From positions 1-47,230 of IMG/VR virus record IMGVR_UViG_3300042900_000560: a DNA stretch of 47,230 nucleotides. The stretch is one strand, 5' to 3'. The DNA is from a virus. The translations under genes were made by a program, and so were the position numbers. The notes below the pieces were generated by a model. That model was not told the origin of the DNA and searched no databases. It was given only the letters and a program-made list of their open reading frames with translations. Positions within the stretch are counted from its first letter, which is position 1. Each line of letters starts with the position of its first letter. This document shows, in pieces, positions 35,333 through 41,685 of the stretch.

Positions 35333-35333
35333 T
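35315..35333. terminator. Hairpin between convergent units
   Basis: A perfect 8-bp stem AGACTTGC / GCAAGTCT with a 3-nt loop lies at the junction of the rightward GIY-YIG/RNA unit and the leftward nucleosidase operon, touching the nucleosidase stop codon. Flanking sequence is AU-rich on the plus-strand side (TTATATTA). It may be a bidirectional terminator; the U-tract is weak. Confidence 0.4.
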
Positions 35334-35875
35334 TATATTAAGTTAAACTCTTTGAGTTTGTTGACATAGTGTGATTGTCCCTGAGCAACTTGTTGTTGCC
35401 AATCACTATGTGCGTTCTGATTGGCTTGATCACTAATGTATTTCCAACACACAAACTCAACTCCATATTTCTTACATGCTTTGGCAATGGCATAGGCTTC
35501 CATGTCTACTACATCTGCTGGAATTGTGAGTGCAGGATTCATCACAAAATTATCGCCGGTACTGCAAGTTAGGCCAGAGGTGTTGCCGATATGCACAGCA
35601 GTTTCAAAAGGAGTTTGTCCTGGGGTACACCCTAATGCTTCACAAGTCATGTCTCTTTGCACAAACCGAGTGCATTGATAGAATCCTGGTGCGACTGTTA
35701 TGCCGCCGGCTGTGCCAAAGTTAATCACACGCTTGGGACGATACTTTGTGATAACTTCGCTGGCAGTCATAGCAGCATTGACCTTGCCTACACCTGTGTA
35801 AAACAAGTTCATCATGTGACCAAGATCCGGTGCTTCTGCTCGAATAGCAATTAAAACAATGTCATTCATCGACAT
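35333..35875 (-). CDS. MTA/SAH-type nucleosidase or purine nucleoside phosphorylase
   Basis: A 180-residue PNP/UDP-phosphorylase-family protein, shorter than the usual ~230. Family motifs are present: YTGVGKVNAAM, RVINFGTAGG, STGDNFV, the ribose-binding VDMEAYAIA and the catalytic-Asp ISDQAN segment, equivalent to ISD-x-A in MTA/SAH nucleosidase. The N-terminal Glu in IRAEAPDL may supply the second catalytic acid. It would release adenine (or another base) from a nucleoside. The start ATG has AAGGGATGG upstream and lies inside the end of the APRT gene (14-nt overlap), coupling the two. Nucleosidase and phosphorylase cannot be separated from sequence alone. Confidence 0.78.
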   Translation of the reverse strand: MSMNDIVLIAIRAEAPDLGHMMNLFYTGVGKVNAAMTASEVITKYRPKRVINFGTAGGITVAPGFYQCTRFVQRDMTCEALGCTPGQTPFETAVHIGNTSGLTCSTGDNFVMNPALTIPADVVDMEAYAIAKACKKYGVEFVCWKYISDQANQNAHSDWQQQVAQGQSHYVNKLKEFNLI

Positions 35876-36386
35876 TGACCATCCCTTCCCACATAATATT
35901 GTGCTGAGTCAATGCTGTACCTCCAGGCAAGTTTTGCAAGTTTATGATCACAGCAGCAGAAATTTTTGTGTCAGTCCAATGACTGCGAATTAGATCTGCT
36001 GTGGCCATTATGGTGCCGCCGGTGGCCAACAAGTCATCCACAATCAATGGATGTGTGCCTACTGGAGCGTGTGGGTGCATTTCAATGGTATCAGTGCTGT
36101 ATTCAGTTTGATAGCTGTGTTGTATTGTGGTGCCGGGCAGTTTGCCACGTTTACGTACCAGTATCAATGGAAGTCCTAACTGTCTTGCTACAGGTGCCGC
36201 AAACACAAAGCCACGGCTTTCCACAGCCACAAGACTGGAAGCATTGTACCAATGTGCTTGATGCTTTAACCATCCACAGCAGTAATCAAATGCCGCTGGT
36301 GCAGCAAGAATGCCAGTTATGTCAAAGAAGTTAATACCTGGTTTGGGCCAATCAGGTACTACAGGTACATGATCGAGAATGTTCAT
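35862..36386 (-). CDS. apt: Adenine phosphoribosyltransferase
   Basis: From the ATG at 36386, a 174-residue APRT, close to the usual ~175-180. I prefer this ATG over a TTG 18 nt upstream because it overlaps the previous stop as ATGA. Motifs are WPKPGINFFDITGIL at the N-terminus, VAVESRGFVFAAPVA, and the PRPP-binding loop LIVDDLLATGGT. It converts adenine and PRPP to AMP. The gene is followed, with overlap, by a nucleosidase that can supply adenine, so the two could form a salvage route from MTA, SAH or adenosine to AMP in the infected cell. Confidence 0.92.
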   Translation of the reverse strand: MNILDHVPVVPDWPKPGINFFDITGILAAPAAFDYCCGWLKHQAHWYNASSLVAVESRGFVFAAPVARQLGLPLILVRKRGKLPGTTIQHSYQTEYSTDTIEMHPHAPVGTHPLIVDDLLATGGTIMATADLIRSHWTDTKISAAVIINLQNLPGGTALTQHNIMWEGMVNVDE

Positions 36387-36718
36387 AAGTTTTGATCCGG
36401 CCAATCTCTAAACAAGGCATGTTGAATGTTGCCTGACACAAATTGATTGAATGACTTGTGCTTGACTTCCAGTTCGCCTTCAAGTGGCGCCACTCGTTTG
36501 AAAGCTGAGTCCATTTGCCCCATGTCCTTAAACTCCATTATGATCATCCATTCGGGCATGTCTGCAATTGACCGGAACCCCATCTTGCATCTAGTGATTC
36601 TGTATGTTTCCATCTTGCCTTCGGAAATCAAATGATCAAAGAAACTTTTCATTCCGTTAACCCAGTCAAGGTCCGAGATGTCGCCTTCTTTGTCTGCCCA
36701 AATTGTGTATAAATCCAT
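36383..36718 (-). CDS. Small dimeric alpha-beta barrel-like protein (DUF6614-like)
   Basis: A 111-residue protein starting MDLYTIWADKEG, with TYRITRCKMGF, WMIIMEFKDMGQMDSAF and HALFRDWPD segments. The pattern resembles the bacterial DUF6614/stress-responsive barrel group, whose function is not established. It lies 2 bp after the upstream gene and overlaps the APRT start by 4 nt, so it belongs to the late gp26 operon. The family call is from memory of its pattern and is moderate. Confidence 0.65.
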   Translation of the reverse strand: MDLYTIWADKEGDISDLDWVNGMKSFFDHLISEGKMETYRITRCKMGFRSIADMPEWMIIMEFKDMGQMDSAFKRVAPLEGELEVKHKSFNQFVSGNIQHALFRDWPDQNL

Positions 36719-36720
36719 AA

Positions 36721-37155
36721 TTACTCCAGTGGTCCTAGTATTTCAAATCCCGCCATGCTAGATTTGTATAAGTGTGCTTGCTCAAGGTACAGATATCGGA
36801 ATCCCCGAGCCTTGTAGATAGCACACTCTGCTTTCATTGTTTCAATTCCCAATCTCAACTTAGGATTGTTGTAGTTCCATGCAAATTGATCGCACAGTGC
36901 GTTATGATCATCATATCGTCGGATCAAACTGAATGCAACCAACCGATCTTGATCGTAGTATCCTATTACATCTGTCATTGGGTCTGTGTAACGACAGTCA
37001 AATATAGGCATCACTGACGCAAAATGTTTGTATTTGCAATAGTCTCGATAGATAGAGTTTAGCTGTTTGATGTTGGGCTCATGCAAGTACTCCCACTTCA
37101 CACTTGGCGTGTAGTTGGTTTGGCTGAGATCAATTCTGGCAAACTGGTAACTCAT
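36721..37155 (-). CDS. GNAT-like acyltransferase-type protein
   Basis: A 144-residue protein. The order of segments (a DVIGYYDQDRLVAFSLIRRY beta-hairpin, then LGIETMKAECAIYKARGF and YLYLEQAHLYKSS) resembles the core of GNAT N-acyltransferases, in which a strand, an acyl-CoA-binding helix and a further strand follow each other. The usual Q/R-x-x-G-x-G/A loop is not clear, so activity is uncertain. It overlaps the upstream 166-residue gene by 4 nt. Confidence 0.55.
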   Translation of the reverse strand: MSYQFARIDLSQTNYTPSVKWEYLHEPNIKQLNSIYRDYCKYKHFASVMPIFDCRYTDPMTDVIGYYDQDRLVAFSLIRRYDDHNALCDQFAWNYNNPKLRLGIETMKAECAIYKARGFRYLYLEQAHLYKSSMAGFEILGPLE

Positions 37156-37652
37156 CTTGGATCTTCACGATGTTCAAACAGCCCTTGCAAGTATTCTTCT
37201 GGCCAGTTGTGATAGAAACCTTTTTCGGCCATGAGCTTGGCTTTAGTGTTTAGGTCGCTGAGACTTTGCACTAGCGCCAGCGCATACTTGCCTTGGTTCA
37301 TGCACACGCCGTTGACCATTTCGACGTCTGCGGGATGATCTTCTAGTGCAAGGATATTGTTGTGTAACAAATGTTCACGATTGGCATTTTTCAAACTGTC
37401 ACTGAATAATTCGTATGGCCATTCCACAGGATCGTAAGCATAGATAATAACTTCTTTGTTGCCCATGCCCCATCGTGCTCGATTTTTAAGATCAAAGTAG
37501 GGATCAACTCCAACATGCACATCGTAGCTTTTTTTCATTCTTGCTGACCGTGCGTATGGACACGGTGCCCAGCCGCCAAGAGCAGGATGTGGAACTTCTA
37601 CAAAGTTCACAATCCAGTTTTCAATATCTTGTTTGACTGTATCTAAGTCCAT
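37152..37652 (-). CDS. Conserved-looking hypothetical protein with GGWAPCPYAR motif
   Basis: I do not recognise a named family for this 166-residue protein. Residues ~18-38 contain a VEVPHPALGGWAPCPYAR stretch that looks like a binding or catalytic loop with a single Cys, followed by a VHVGVDPYFDL segment and a helical C-terminus with many Trp, Tyr and His. It starts on the gp51 stop (TAATG) and overlaps the next gene, so it is co-translated with the tail-chaperone genes. Confidence 0.6.
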   Translation of the reverse strand: MDLDTVKQDIENWIVNFVEVPHPALGGWAPCPYARSARMKKSYDVHVGVDPYFDLKNRARWGMGNKEVIIYAYDPVEWPYELFSDSLKNANREHLLHNNILALEDHPADVEMVNGVCMNQGKYALALVQSLSDLNTKAKLMAEKGFYHNWPEEYLQGLFEHREDPR

Positions 37653-37933
37653 TAGAAGAAAGGCAATCCAGATTTTTTAGTTGTTTCCATGTTGTCTTTG
37701 GCCAGTTCAGAAATCATTGAACGTTCGCTGCTGCTGAGCAACAGCACTTGATCGTAGGTTATACCGCCACGCATGTACCAAGCCAATTTGAAACTTTCTT
37801 CACGAATTGACTTGGCCTCCTGCTCCATACTCTCAATTATGTTAGCAATCTGTTCAGGGTCAGCGGTCAGGAGGCGTTGTCGAAAAAAGTCGCTGTATCC
37901 AATGTGAACTGTTGTTGATATACATGTTGGCAT
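37652..37933 (-). CDS. 51: Baseplate hub assembly protein gp51, likely made as a gp26-gp51 frameshift fusion
   Basis: The reading frame spans 93 residues and overlaps the end of gene 26 by 67 nt in the -1 frame. Its C-terminus (LAWYMRGGITYDQVLLLSSS and ending TTKKSGLPFF) matches the gp51 pattern of T4-like phages. The upstream ATG at 37933 has no Shine-Dalgarno, and the residues it would add before the slip site look unlike a domain. A second ATG at 37828 has only a weak GAGAG upstream. The overlap contains T TTT TTC in the gp26 frame, so the most likely product is a gp26-gp51 fusion reading FTLDTATFF-RQRLLTADPEQ. T4 has the same 26-51 order and gp51 is an assembly factor absent from the finished hub. 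Confidence 0.75.
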   Translation of the reverse strand: MPTCISTTVHIGYSDFFRQRLLTADPEQIANIIESMEQEAKSIREESFKLAWYMRGGITYDQVLLLSSSERSMISELAKDNMETTKKSGLPFF

Positions 37934-38709
37934 TCAGGGCATTGCATATCAATGGGTTTGAAGTCATCATTTACCCGCAGTTTGATTGCATGATCTCTAA
38001 TTTTTATATACAAGTTTCGATCACAATTTTTCAAAAATTCTTCAATAAACTCAGGCTCAGTGACCAGTGCCTGTGGAGTGCGTATGCTCTTGATGCTGTT
38101 TTTGATTGCTTTTATTGTGATTTCTGTAATGGCTGTCACTGCAAGATTCATGCGTTTGGATTTTTCTTCGTCAGACATGTCGGCATTGGGCAACTGATTG
38201 AGAATGCGCTGTTGCTCAAATTGCAGCAGGTTAACGTCAGTTTGGTTCTTGTAATCCATTGGGGTAAAATAAATTTCAAGATCGCCGTGTTTGACAGTTT
38301 CTGCATAGTCACTCATGCCAAGTTTTGATAGTACAGCCTGTAAATCTACTTCAACATCAGTGATTTCATTGCAAGCCGGACATTCAGTGGAAAGTGGCAT
38401 GGCCTTTCCGTAACTGGCAATGCGAATAGCAGTGAGGATGGCATTTAGATCGCAATTGGGTGTGTGCCAGGCATTCTTGATGTTTGGCATGCAACTTTGT
38501 ATCACAGTCACTATGGCTGCTCCGTTAAAAAGTGCATCAGGTGTGCGATAGGTAATTTCATCCATGGCAGTCATGGGCAACACTGGCAGTTCTCGATTGA
38601 CCGGAACGTCAACCGCTCCGTTGGGCCAAAATTGCCCGTCACTGGGCAGTCGAATGTAAATGGCAGGTTGTCGGAAAAAAGATTTTAACGGGTTCGCAGT
38701 TTGGGTCAT
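37867..38709 (-). CDS. 26: Baseplate hub assembly protein gp26 (T4_baseplate family)
   Basis: A 280-residue protein of the T4 gp26-type family (Pfam T4_baseplate). The N-terminus IYIRLPSDGQFWPNG and the PMTAMDEITYRTPDALFNG segment are signatures. Two CxxC pairs, ECPACNEI and CPECQHVY, suggest a zinc ribbon. The protein ends TATFFDNAS at a TGA, and the -1 frame continues into gp51 at the slippery TTTTTTC. The gene lies next to, but divergent from, the tape-measure gene, which fits a role as a tail-assembly chaperone like lambda gpG. The late-type box TATAAGTA and AGGTG lie upstream. Confidence 0.9.
   Translation of the reverse strand: MTQTANPLKSFFRQPAIYIRLPSDGQFWPNGAVDVPVNRELPVLPMTAMDEITYRTPDALFNGAAIVTVIQSCMPNIKNAWHTPNCDLNAILTAIRIASYGKAMPLSTECPACNEITDVEVDLQAVLSKLGMSDYAETVKHGDLEIYFTPMDYKNQTDVNLLQFEQQRILNQLPNADMSDEEKSKRMNLAVTAITEITIKAIKNSIKSIRTPQALVTEPEFIEEFLKNCDRNLYIKIRDHAIKLRVNDDFKPIDMQCPECQHVYQQQFTLDTATFFDNAS
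37882..37888 (-). promoter_or_regulatory. Candidate -1 ribosomal frameshift site T TTT TTC
   Basis: In the gp26 frame the codons are ACT TTT TTC GAC, giving the X XXY YYZ heptamer TTTTTTC. Slipping back one base after TTC leads straight into CGA CAA CGC of the gp51 frame, and zero-frame translation ends five codons later at TGA. I see no strong downstream stem by eye. Confidence 0.65.
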
Positions 38710-38751: not shown

Positions 38752-41685
38752 ATGGCTGCAACAGAAGAAGAATCAAGACGATTAGCCGAAGAATTAACCA
38801 ATGCTACAAATGCATTGAGTCAATTTTCTGGCATGCTTTACGGCCAAAGTGCAGAGCAACTCAAAGCGACCCAAGCGGACAAAGATGCCAAAGAAGCTGC
38901 TTCTAAATTTGCTGCCAAAATGGATGCAGCGTCTGAAGCAGCCAAAGCGTTAGCCGGAGTTTTTGTAAACTACCAGAAAGAAGTATACAAAGGTAGCAGT
39001 GCCAATAAAGCCGCTGCTGCTTCTATTGATGCCATGGGCGAAGCAGCCAAATATGCTGGCGTATTTTTGGCGCTGTTGGTACCAGGTGGTCCACTAGTCA
39101 AAGGTCTAGTTGCTGGTATAGGATTGCTAACCAGTGAGTTGATCAAGTCTGGTAAGTTGATTGCCGAACAAACTGACGAGATATACAAAGCCTATCAAGA
39201 CATGGCCAAGGCAGGTGCCGCAGGTGCAGGCGGCATGCAGGATGTGTTTGACAGCTTGCAAAAAGTTGGCATGGGCACAGAAAAGTTTGGTGCCTACATC
39301 AAACTTGTTAACGAAAATGCCAGTGATCTTGCCATGTTTGGAGGATCAGTAAACAAAGGCCGCAAGATCTTTGAAAACACAATGTCATCATTGAGCAAAG
39401 ATCAACGGGTTCAAATGGAGCAAATGGGCTTGGATAGAGAAGCGCAATCCCAAGCAGCCATGGCCTATATTAAACAACAAAGATTGCTCACAGCTGGCAC
39501 CAAAGCACAAATGGATACCAGCAGTACTGCGGTAATGAAATATGTGGCAGAAACTGATGCGCTCACACGTATCACTGGAGCCAATAGAGAAGAACAACAA
39601 AAAATTCTTGATGAAGCAATGGCCGAAGACATATTTGGCTCATTCTTGGACAACATGCGATCGCAAGGCGAAGAAGGTGTAAAAAAAGCAGAACAAATTC
39701 AAAATGCCATTATCATGCAACAAAAGATGTATGGCACACAATCTGCTAAAGGACTTAGAGACAGTTTGACTGGGTTTCTTGGAACATCAAGTGAAAATCA
39801 AAAGTTTTTCATGTCATACGGCGAAGGCGGCCAACAACTTGTAAACACATTAAGAGATGTAAACGGAACCAATGATGACATGTACGATGCCATGAAAGCA
39901 CAAGCTAAATCTGGCAAAGAACTCAATGAATCAATGGCAGGCATCACTGGAATGGGTGTTGCTGGTGATGTGTTTATAGCCTACAAAGAACGTAGATTGG
40001 CTGAACAAAATTTCAACAAAGATTTAGGAAAACTATTTGCCGAAGCAGCCAAAGAACGTGCGGACATGTTGAAAGATCCTACAACCAAGAAGGCCGCTGA
40101 AGCAGAAAACAATGTTAGAGAAACACAATTAAAACAGCAAAGACTGGTTAATCTTGGAATGGATACGTACATTTCAACTTCACATACAGCTAGTGAAGCC
40201 AATCTTGCATTGGCTGAAGCAGCATTGGCGGCGGCAAAATGGTTAGGAAAAATGACCGGAGATGCTGAACGGAAAAAAACACAAACCCTAGCTCAAGCAA
40301 AACAAACACACGGAGCTACAACTCAAACAGCATTAGAAGCAGCCGACAAAGCTCGAGCAACCGCAGCTGATGCAAACGCCACAAAAGAACAAAAAGCCGC
40401 AGCACAAAAAGCCGCAGATCTTGCAGCCGCCGAAAGTCAGCAAACTGCTAGAGAACAAAGAGAAGCACAGCTAAGAGAAACCAACGAACGTAGAAAAAAA
40501 CAAAAAGCAGAAAGAGCTGCTGCACTTATGAAACCATCTGCGGCAGCACCAGCATCAGGCAGTGCTGGTGGCGCAGCACCAGCAGCTGGTGGCGGGGGAG
40601 CAGCTAGTTCATCAGCACCTGCGCCTCAAGGAATGACTGGTCCGGAACCTCATGCAGCAGTTGGCAGTGGAGGCGGCAAGGAAGAAAAACCCAAATTAAC
40701 AAGAATAAGTAGTAAAAGTGGCCCAAGTACATCGGTCAATGAAAAATACGCACCAAGATTTCAAGGGTTAGTTGATTGGCTCGATGGTCAGGGATATGCA
40801 ATCAACTCTCTTGGCGGATACGTTGATCGTGACGTCCGGGGACAACCAGGAGTAAAAAGTGTTCATGCTCACGGTGCCGCCATTGATATTAATCCAAGTG
40901 CTAATCCTTTTGGTTCTAAACTGGTTACAGATATGCCAGCAAATGTTGCCAGTGTGGCAAAACAAATGGGATTGGGATGGGGAGGCAATTGGACTTCAGT
41001 AAAAGATGCTATGCACTTTAGTGTGGCCAAAAACGAAGGCGGCGATATTCAGTTAGCAGATGGAGGTATAGTACCGGCTAGACCAGGAGGTACCCGTGCA
41101 GTGATTGGCGAAGGTGGCCAGGATGAAGCAGTAATTCCACTTAAGGATGGAAAACTCCCAGTTCATATAAACAGTAAAGATATTGACAGTCTTGGTGGAG
41201 GATACAACGAGCTCAAAGGTTATACCATGGGTCCAATGTCCACTGATCTGGCAATATTGGAAAAAATTGCTGGCAAACTAGGAGCATACGACAAATCCAC
41301 ACAGATGATCACTGATCCAAAACTCTGGAAAGAAATTGTGCAATCAGGCATGTTGATGAACTATGATTTAGGCCAAGCTAAAATTGGAACAAGAGGAATG
41401 TCCGAGATGGTAGGTTCAGACACAGTAGCTGATGCACTTGCTGGACGAATCAAGGAACTGATTGACACCAAGAAAGACAGCAGCGAAGCAATTGCTCAAA
41501 CTAGAACTGAGTTTGCTGATATGATGAAAACATTCTACGAAGATTTCTTTGCTAAGATGATTGCTCAACAGCAAACAGAGAATCCATTGGACGCTGAAAT
41601 GCTGGCTACACTAAAAGAAATCAGCAGAACCAATGCTGCGGCTGCTGGGGCCAGCGAAAAAATGTTGCGTTACACACAGAACTAA
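38752..41685 (+). CDS. Tail tape-measure protein with M15-type peptidase domain
   Basis: A 977-residue protein. The N-terminus is helical, with a hydrophobic segment at ~100-130 (AKYAGVFLALLVPGGPLVKG and following), typical of tape measures. Residues ~470-590 are Ala/Lys/Gln-rich coiled coil and ~590-650 an Ala/Gly/Pro linker. Residues ~660-760 match VanY/M15 peptidases: SVHAHGAAID (zinc ligands His705 and Asp712) and DAMHFS (His755). The GGIVPARPGG...VIGEGGQDEAVIP motif common in tape measures follows. It should set tail length and deliver a peptidoglycan peptidase into the cell wall. It occupies the functional place of T4 gp29 (590 residues). Confidence 0.85.
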   Translation: MAATEEESRRLAEELTNATNALSQFSGMLYGQSAEQLKATQADKDAKEAASKFAAKMDAASEAAKALAGVFVNYQKEVYKGSSANKAAAASIDAMGEAAKYAGVFLALLVPGGPLVKGLVAGIGLLTSELIKSGKLIAEQTDEIYKAYQDMAKAGAAGAGGMQDVFDSLQKVGMGTEKFGAYIKLVNENASDLAMFGGSVNKGRKIFENTMSSLSKDQRVQMEQMGLDREAQSQAAMAYIKQQRLLTAGTKAQMDTSSTAVMKYVAETDALTRITGANREEQQKILDEAMAEDIFGSFLDNMRSQGEEGVKKAEQIQNAIIMQQKMYGTQSAKGLRDSLTGFLGTSSENQKFFMSYGEGGQQLVNTLRDVNGTNDDMYDAMKAQAKSGKELNESMAGITGMGVAGDVFIAYKERRLAEQNFNKDLGKLFAEAAKERADMLKDPTTKKAAEAENNVRETQLKQQRLVNLGMDTYISTSHTASEANLALAEAALAAAKWLGKMTGDAERKKTQTLAQAKQTHGATTQTALEAADKARATAADANATKEQKAAAQKAADLAAAESQQTAREQREAQLRETNERRKKQKAERAAALMKPSAAAPASGSAGGAAPAAGGGGAASSSAPAPQGMTGPEPHAAVGSGGGKEEKPKLTRISSKSGPSTSVNEKYAPRFQGLVDWLDGQGYAINSLGGYVDRDVRGQPGVKSVHAHGAAIDINPSANPFGSKLVTDMPANVASVAKQMGLGWGGNWTSVKDAMHFSVAKNEGGDIQLADGGIVPARPGGTRAVIGEGGQDEAVIPLKDGKLPVHINSKDIDSLGGGYNELKGYTMGPMSTDLAILEKIAGKLGAYDKSTQMITDPKLWKEIVQSGMLMNYDLGQAKIGTRGMSEMVGSDTVADALAGRIKELIDTKKDSSEAIAQTRTEFADMMKTFYEDFFAKMIAQQQTENPLDAEMLATLKEISRTNAAAAGASEKMLRYTQN

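Follow-up and report, generated by a model that had tools for sequence, protein, structure and literature searches.

A conserved T TTT TTC slip site predicts a frameshifted tail assembly chaperone pair in T4-like jumbo phages

Phage lambda makes its tail assembly chaperones (TACs) gpG and gpGT as a short and a long form that share an N-terminal domain; ribosomes slip on G GGA AAG, and the tape-measure gene lies next door, downstream on the same strand. For T4-like phages, Vladimirov, Gautam and Davidson (2022, Virology 566:9-15) reportedly identified gp26 and gp51 as the tail assembly chaperones, with a short form (TAC-N) and a long form (TAC-NC) encoded by two genes in T4 and by one frameshifted gene elsewhere. 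The passage of PMC10885494 that deals with frameshifted T4-like chaperones cites Vladimirov et al. 2022, as does the passage of PMC12846349 that deals with poly-T slip sites. Here we analyse a gp26 homologue and the −1-frame open reading frame (ORF) overlapping its 3' end in a viral DNA of 47,230 nucleotides (nt), positions 1 to 47,230 of IMG/VR record IMGVR_UViG_3300042900_000560, hereafter the window. From sequence comparison, a programmed −1 ribosomal frameshift yielding a short and a long chaperone is very probably what this arrangement encodes, and is by far the best explanation for it. Such a pair is of a known kind, and the idea has already been published for T4-like phages.

The window shares with the T4-like gp26/gp51 chaperones a gp26-family N-domain, a C-domain in the −1 frame and a poly-T slip site. 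It differs from T4 itself, in which gene 51, on the strand opposite to gene 26, encodes the long form by itself and has the C-domain in frame. Like lambda, it has a short and a long form with a common N-domain (judged here from the reading frames alone) and a tape-measure gene, here a candidate, next door; however, there is no detectable sequence relation to lambda, and the window N-domain measures 280 amino acids (aa). The pair would thus work like the lambda pair, but we do not file it as lambda type because the large neighbour is divergent rather than downstream on the same strand. Phage Adele and other Vandenendeviridae/Andersonviridae, families different from the window's group, likewise have a conserved −1 shift at a poly-T motif, GTTTTT, where TAC-N ends; annotations of the Adele group routinely record the downstream ORF as a hypothetical protein of its own (PMC12846349). 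The features of the locus are, in window coordinates:

37867–38709, minus strand: gp26 homologue, the predicted short chaperone form TAC-N (ORF; PF12322; phrog_150; confident AlphaFold model)
37882–37888, minus strand: slippery heptamer T TTT TTC in the gp26 phase, conserved in viral contigs and jumbo phages
37876–37881, minus strand: 6-nt spacer GACAAC between heptamer and hairpin
37868–37875, minus strand: 5' arm GCCTCCTG of the predicted stimulatory hairpin, overlapping the gp26 stop codon
37815–37822, minus strand: 3' arm CAGGAGGC of that hairpin, by pairing and by covariation in sister lineages; loop at 37823–37867
37655–37882, minus strand: TAC-C, the C-terminal domain of 76 aa (RQRLL...GLPFF), reached by the slip into the −1 frame and conserved in relatives
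38709–37882, then 37882–37655, minus strand: codons of the predicted fusion TAC-NC, 276 + 76 = 352 aa
37652–37933, minus strand: the mechanically called −1 ORF ("gene 51"), whose ATG at 37931–37933 we judge to be a false start
38752–41685, plus strand: divergent neighbour of 977 aa with an M15 peptidase domain, probably the tape measure protein and client

The gp26 homologue, with its TGA stop at 37869–37867, matches Pfam PF12322 (T4_baseplate) with E 3e-12 and 47.1 bits against a curated cut-off of 24.5, and PHROG family phrog_150 ("baseplate hub") with E 2.5e-15. The −1 ORF, of 93 aa, was named gene 51 in a preliminary description of this DNA; it shares 67 nt (37867–37933) with gp26, in agreement with that description. 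On the minus strand the 3' end of gp26 reads ...GCG ACT TTT TTC GAC AAC GCC TCC TGA. The heptamer TTTTTTC, at 37888–37882, stands in the gp26 phase as AC[T TTT TTC] and is followed by four sense codons (GAC AAC GCC TCC) and TGA, so that the slip site near the gp26 stop is also where it had been placed.

In a single genome such a heptamer is suggestive at most, because in-frame X XXY YYZ motifs occur at 0.39% of codons in window ORFs of at least 150 codons, giving about 0.08 expected per 20-codon overlap (about 0.005 for T TTT TTC specifically). Its conservation across relatives places the slip site far beyond chance. A scan of viral contigs with gp26 returned 80 loci, and T TTT TTC stands in frame in all 79 whose gp26 end was readable (37–100% protein identity), 1 or 4 codons ahead of the gp26 stop and with the −1 frame open across it. 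Eleven of the 12 jumbo-phage isolates found by tblastn carry the same heptamer (Atu_ph07, RaK2, MIJ3, Phosso, 121Q, GAP32, SCTP-2, Vibrio 2.275.O, Munch, CBB and XaC1), while the twelfth, XacN1, has T TTT TTT; among the hosts are Escherichia, Klebsiella, Salmonella, Pseudomonas, Agrobacterium, Xanthomonas and the halophile Salicola. When the loci were grouped into 61 clusters at 70% identity, the codon preceding Phe-Phe ended in T in every one (AAT, GAT, AGT, ACT, CAT, GTT, CGT, TAT or GCT), followed by TTT and then TTC (TTT in one cluster). Codon usage would produce this in about 12% of cases per cluster; we give no combined probability because the clusters are related to each other. Of 99 additional loci from cyanophages and other T4-like phages, 98 have T TTT TTC or T TTT TTT, and the gp26/C-domain arrangement recurs in isolates from many sequencing groups, about 190 loci overall. 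A heptamer of the X XXY YYZ form thus lies in the zero frame within the overlap and is kept in all relatives of this lineage, the outcome that the preliminary description had proposed to look for.

Two gp26-like sequences had no slip site: uncultured LR756508 (L095 5001–5775), in which the match covers residues 9–176 of the window protein, and L205, in which it covers only residues 6–199 of its query. These may be truncated or aberrant copies, given that both matches are partial. Three further loci retain the −1 C-domain with Ile or Leu in place of the first slip-site Phe (ATT TTC, CTT TTC), leaving no tandem heptamer: Cygsa01 (L106 5270–5330), Vibrio K352 (L212 ~2223) and Klebsiella Magnus, of the Ackermannviridae (L210 ~2241). 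The first two also have a TAATG stop/start overlap. In these three phages, slippage on a single T TTC or separate initiation may serve instead.

A predicted hairpin follows the heptamer, its 5' arm starting at about +13 in most relatives and so leaving a 6-nt spacer. In the window, GCCTCCTG (37875–37868) would pair with CAGGAGGC (37822–37815) in 8 perfect base pairs across a 45-nt loop; on dinucleotide shuffles alone this fold is unremarkable (z −1.3). Against synonymous-codon controls that kept the 5' arm intact by sparing the first five codons of the −1 frame, the hairpin has a mean z of −2.18 over the 61 clusters, with 67% at p ≤0.05, compared with a mean z of −0.34 for a control stretch 100 nt further downstream. 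The 5' start is nearly fixed and the 3' arm varies by lineage, with registers at i+j = 33, 51/52, 64, 71/72 and 85 on a common scale. Two of the largest hairpin classes have 94.6% and 91.7% standard pairs, against 24–56% in slid structures, with two-sided changes in 5 and 6 pairs, respectively; their covariation scores were matched by 0 of 500 shuffles and lie far above those of slid structures. The arms also encode conserved residues (RLL in the 5' arm), which the synonymous controls and slid structures address computationally. Except in a RaK2-like subset, a predicted downstream stimulator is therefore present within the 5–9 nt spacing expected of a −1 frameshift signal, and the hairpin signal is common to the cyanophage and jumbo groups. 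Cyanophages (25 of 29 deduplicated loci) and Aeromonas phages (2 of 2) have in addition GGAGG, which resembles a Shine-Dalgarno sequence, some 10 nt ahead of the heptamer. This element is absent from all 59 jumbo clusters in which it was sought, and we rejected an upstream Shine-Dalgarno stimulator for the window's lineage on that count.

The C-domain might instead be an independent small gene, translated from its own start (ATG 37933 in the window) through coupling or weak initiation and never fused to gp26. The window does have a start codon at −15 codons, and Cygsa01 and Vibrio K352 combine a degenerate heptamer with a gp26 stop that overlaps an ATG, so that some distant relatives may express the domain in this way. 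However, no Shine-Dalgarno sequence occurs in the 30 nt upstream of ATG 37933, as had been claimed earlier, and that ATG is absent from L006 and L007, whose gp26 is 84% identical to that of the window. Between the preceding stop and the heptamer, 81 of 94 loci lack any ATG, GTG or TTG in the −1 frame; 73 of the 94 have at most 10 open −1 codons there, many with a −1 stop almost directly ahead of the heptamer, and MIJ3 has no start codon anywhere in the extension. Matches found by tblastn with the preliminary description's gp51 begin at its residues 14–16, which is the slip site. From there the extension runs for 76 codons in nearly all close relatives and 58–79 in distant ones, and FFR, W37, R40, G41, N66 and P76 (numbered from the first F) are invariant over 34 loci. 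An independent gene would need neither the T TTT TTC phase nor the hairpin. We accordingly rejected the own-start model for gp51 and regard independent expression in the window as very improbable: by sequence comparison, the heptamer, its frame, the C-domain and the predicted hairpin are conserved and usable starts are not.

Slippage by RNA polymerase on the T6 run, giving frame-shifted mRNAs, would suit a conserved run of six T, or seven in XacN1 and phiM7. Six is short for transcriptional slippage, and the phase is locked (third-position T, then TTT, then TTC) although polymerase slippage needs no phase; the fixed-spacer hairpin and the cyanophage Shine-Dalgarno-like element are, moreover, stimulators of ribosomes. 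We consider this explanation just as improbable as an independent gene. The in-frame heptamer could also have arisen by chance, with single-genome odds of about 8% in such an overlap, or the arrangement could reflect an assembly error or a decaying gene. Its recurrence across the roughly 190 loci, including isolates from many groups, and the conservation of the C-domain as a protein have already refuted these possibilities, to which we attach practically no weight.

The relationship to T4 differs from that proposed in the preliminary description, which had assumed the order 26-51 in T4 and equated the second ORF with gp51. T4 genes 26 and 51 are divergent: the plus strand carries genes 51-27-28-29, the minus strand gene 26. 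T4 gp51 (L082 3980–4729) is a 249-aa paralogue of gp26 with the C-domain fused in frame, so the window ORF corresponds to its C-terminal domain only; we therefore rejected a literal identity with T4 gp51. The name can be explained by cyanophage-type annotations, in which "gp51" or "baseplate hub assembly catalyst" denotes the C-domain. A frameshift in T4 gp26 itself was also rejected: no heptamer lies in a −1 overlap at the end of T4 gene 26, where the −1 frame is gene 25. Profile comparisons matched Straboviridae gp26 to gp51 (99.2%, E 3e-19), the cyanophage/Ah1 long form to gp51 nearly end to end including the C-domain (98.5%), and the jumbo long form to the cyanophage/Ah1 long form (97.1%). 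In the cyanophage/Ah1 alignment the slip-site FFR falls beside "VFKLL" of gp51, and the C-domain on the gp51 C-terminus. On these comparisons the T4 lineage has TAC-N and TAC-NC as two genes, whereas other lineages would obtain both from one gene by frameshifting. Separate genes were found only in the Straboviridae examined (T4, DLP3, phiAS4, E26 and SJ_PmiM), whose gp51 comprises an entire gp26-like protein plus an in-frame C-domain; as judged from these sequences, gene duplication replaces frameshifting in them.

We propose that most ribosomes would read gp26 to the TGA and release the 280-aa TAC-N. A minority would pause at T TTT TTC on meeting the hairpin 6 nt downstream, the two Phe-tRNAs would move back by one base and pair with TTT TTT, and a further 76 codons would be read in the −1 frame, giving the 352-aa TAC-NC. 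By analogy with lambda gpG/gpGT, both forms would coat the tape measure protein, or act as its chaperones, while the tail is being assembled, with the C-domain contacting it, and would be gone before the virion is complete. The slippage itself and how efficient it is, the role as chaperones and the identity of the client are what we infer. The earlier proposal of a −1 slip that fuses gp26 to the next ORF, with products acting as tape-measure chaperones, accordingly survives all comparative tests run, as an interpretation of sequence.

Several observations weigh against this proposal. The frameshift and the fusion peptide are predictions from sequence comparison. The direct profile match between the jumbo long form and T4 gp51 is weak, at 24–44% probability (44%: E 2e-4), although in the correct C-terminal register, so that the link runs via cyanophages. 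The RaK2-like subset (L084, L088, L090 and L091) has no significant hairpin against the synonymous controls. The presumed client gene lies on the strand opposite to gp26 and is itself a probable tape-measure gene at most. GenBank labels CBB gp26 a "structural protein", and some T4 genetics put gp26 in the hub (PMC3004832). Finally, VIA-align places gp26 on the HK97 tail assembly chaperone 2ob9 with Z 5.8 and an rmsd (root-mean-square deviation) of 4.4 over 101 of 107 residues, a match that is only suggestive because many unrelated chains score as high.

AlphaFold models of gp26 and the C-domain, folded separately, have pLDDT (predicted local distance difference test) scores of 91 and 89, respectively; the C-domain model is helical. 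Foldseek against the PDB gave no match below E 0.4, and a PDB sequence search with gp26 gave none. As expected, a BFVD search yielded members of the gp26 family. For this lineage's C-domain, neither Pfam nor PHROG scans gave a consistent match.

The large ORF adjoining gp26 is divergent, as the preliminary description had stated in calling it the tape-measure gene; the position and strand stand, and the identity is probable. Its M15 (D-Ala-D-Ala carboxypeptidase-like) domain, PF13539, spans residues 697–757. Of 93 related loci, 64 have a homologue at this position, and 89 have a long minus-strand ORF there, divergent as in the window. PHROG scans of the neighbour protein from six jumbo isolates returned "virion structural protein" only, with no "tape measure" and no M15-type match. 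In virion mass spectrometry of CBB, the protein at the neighbour position, CBB_251, is among the best covered (29 peptides), and CBB_250 (gp26) and CBB_249 (C-domain) are not in the list (PMC5259590 Table 4), though absence from one list is not proof. This distribution suits a tape measure and its chaperone. Conversely, a RaK2 study did not detect the protein at the tape-measure-candidate position (PMC3622015). On balance, the 977-aa neighbour is probably the tape measure protein and the client of the chaperone.

In terms of annotation, gp26 ("baseplate hub") and the small ORF would become one chaperone gene with two products, a correction that covers giant phages, cyanophages and uncultured relatives. 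GenBank leaves the extension unannotated or gives it as a separate hypothetical protein, mostly truncated; elsewhere it appears as "gp51 baseplate hub assembly catalyst". As far as could be found in the literature searched, the predicted conserved hairpin and the swap of stimulators are new, and they offer a natural series for the evolution of −1 frameshift signals inside coding sequence, with the T4 lineage as a case of frameshifting replaced by duplication. We lean somewhat towards regarding the T4-like chaperone frameshift as a modular cassette, undescribed as such. It would combine a near-invariant T TTT TTC with a hairpin that keeps its 5' arm about 6 nt beyond the heptamer while its 3' arm has moved to at least five positions in the C-domain; the internal Shine-Dalgarno-like element would be optional, occurring in cyanophages and Aeromonas phages and not in the window's jumbo lineage. 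In Ackermannviridae, Cygsa01 and Vibrio K352 the heptamer would have degenerated, leaving a single T TTC slip or a TAATG overlap, and the cassette would have given way to gene duplication in T4.

Downstream of the pair, the C-domain stop and the ATG of the gene that follows overlap (TTCTTCTAATGG, 37650–37654), suggesting translational coupling of the C-domain with the 166-aa ORF at 37152–37652; the only match of that ORF is a weak one to DUF6875. Further along the minus strand, at 35333–36404, two adjoining ORFs resemble, by eye from their translations, a nucleosidase and an adenine phosphoribosyltransferase, and are possible purine salvage genes.
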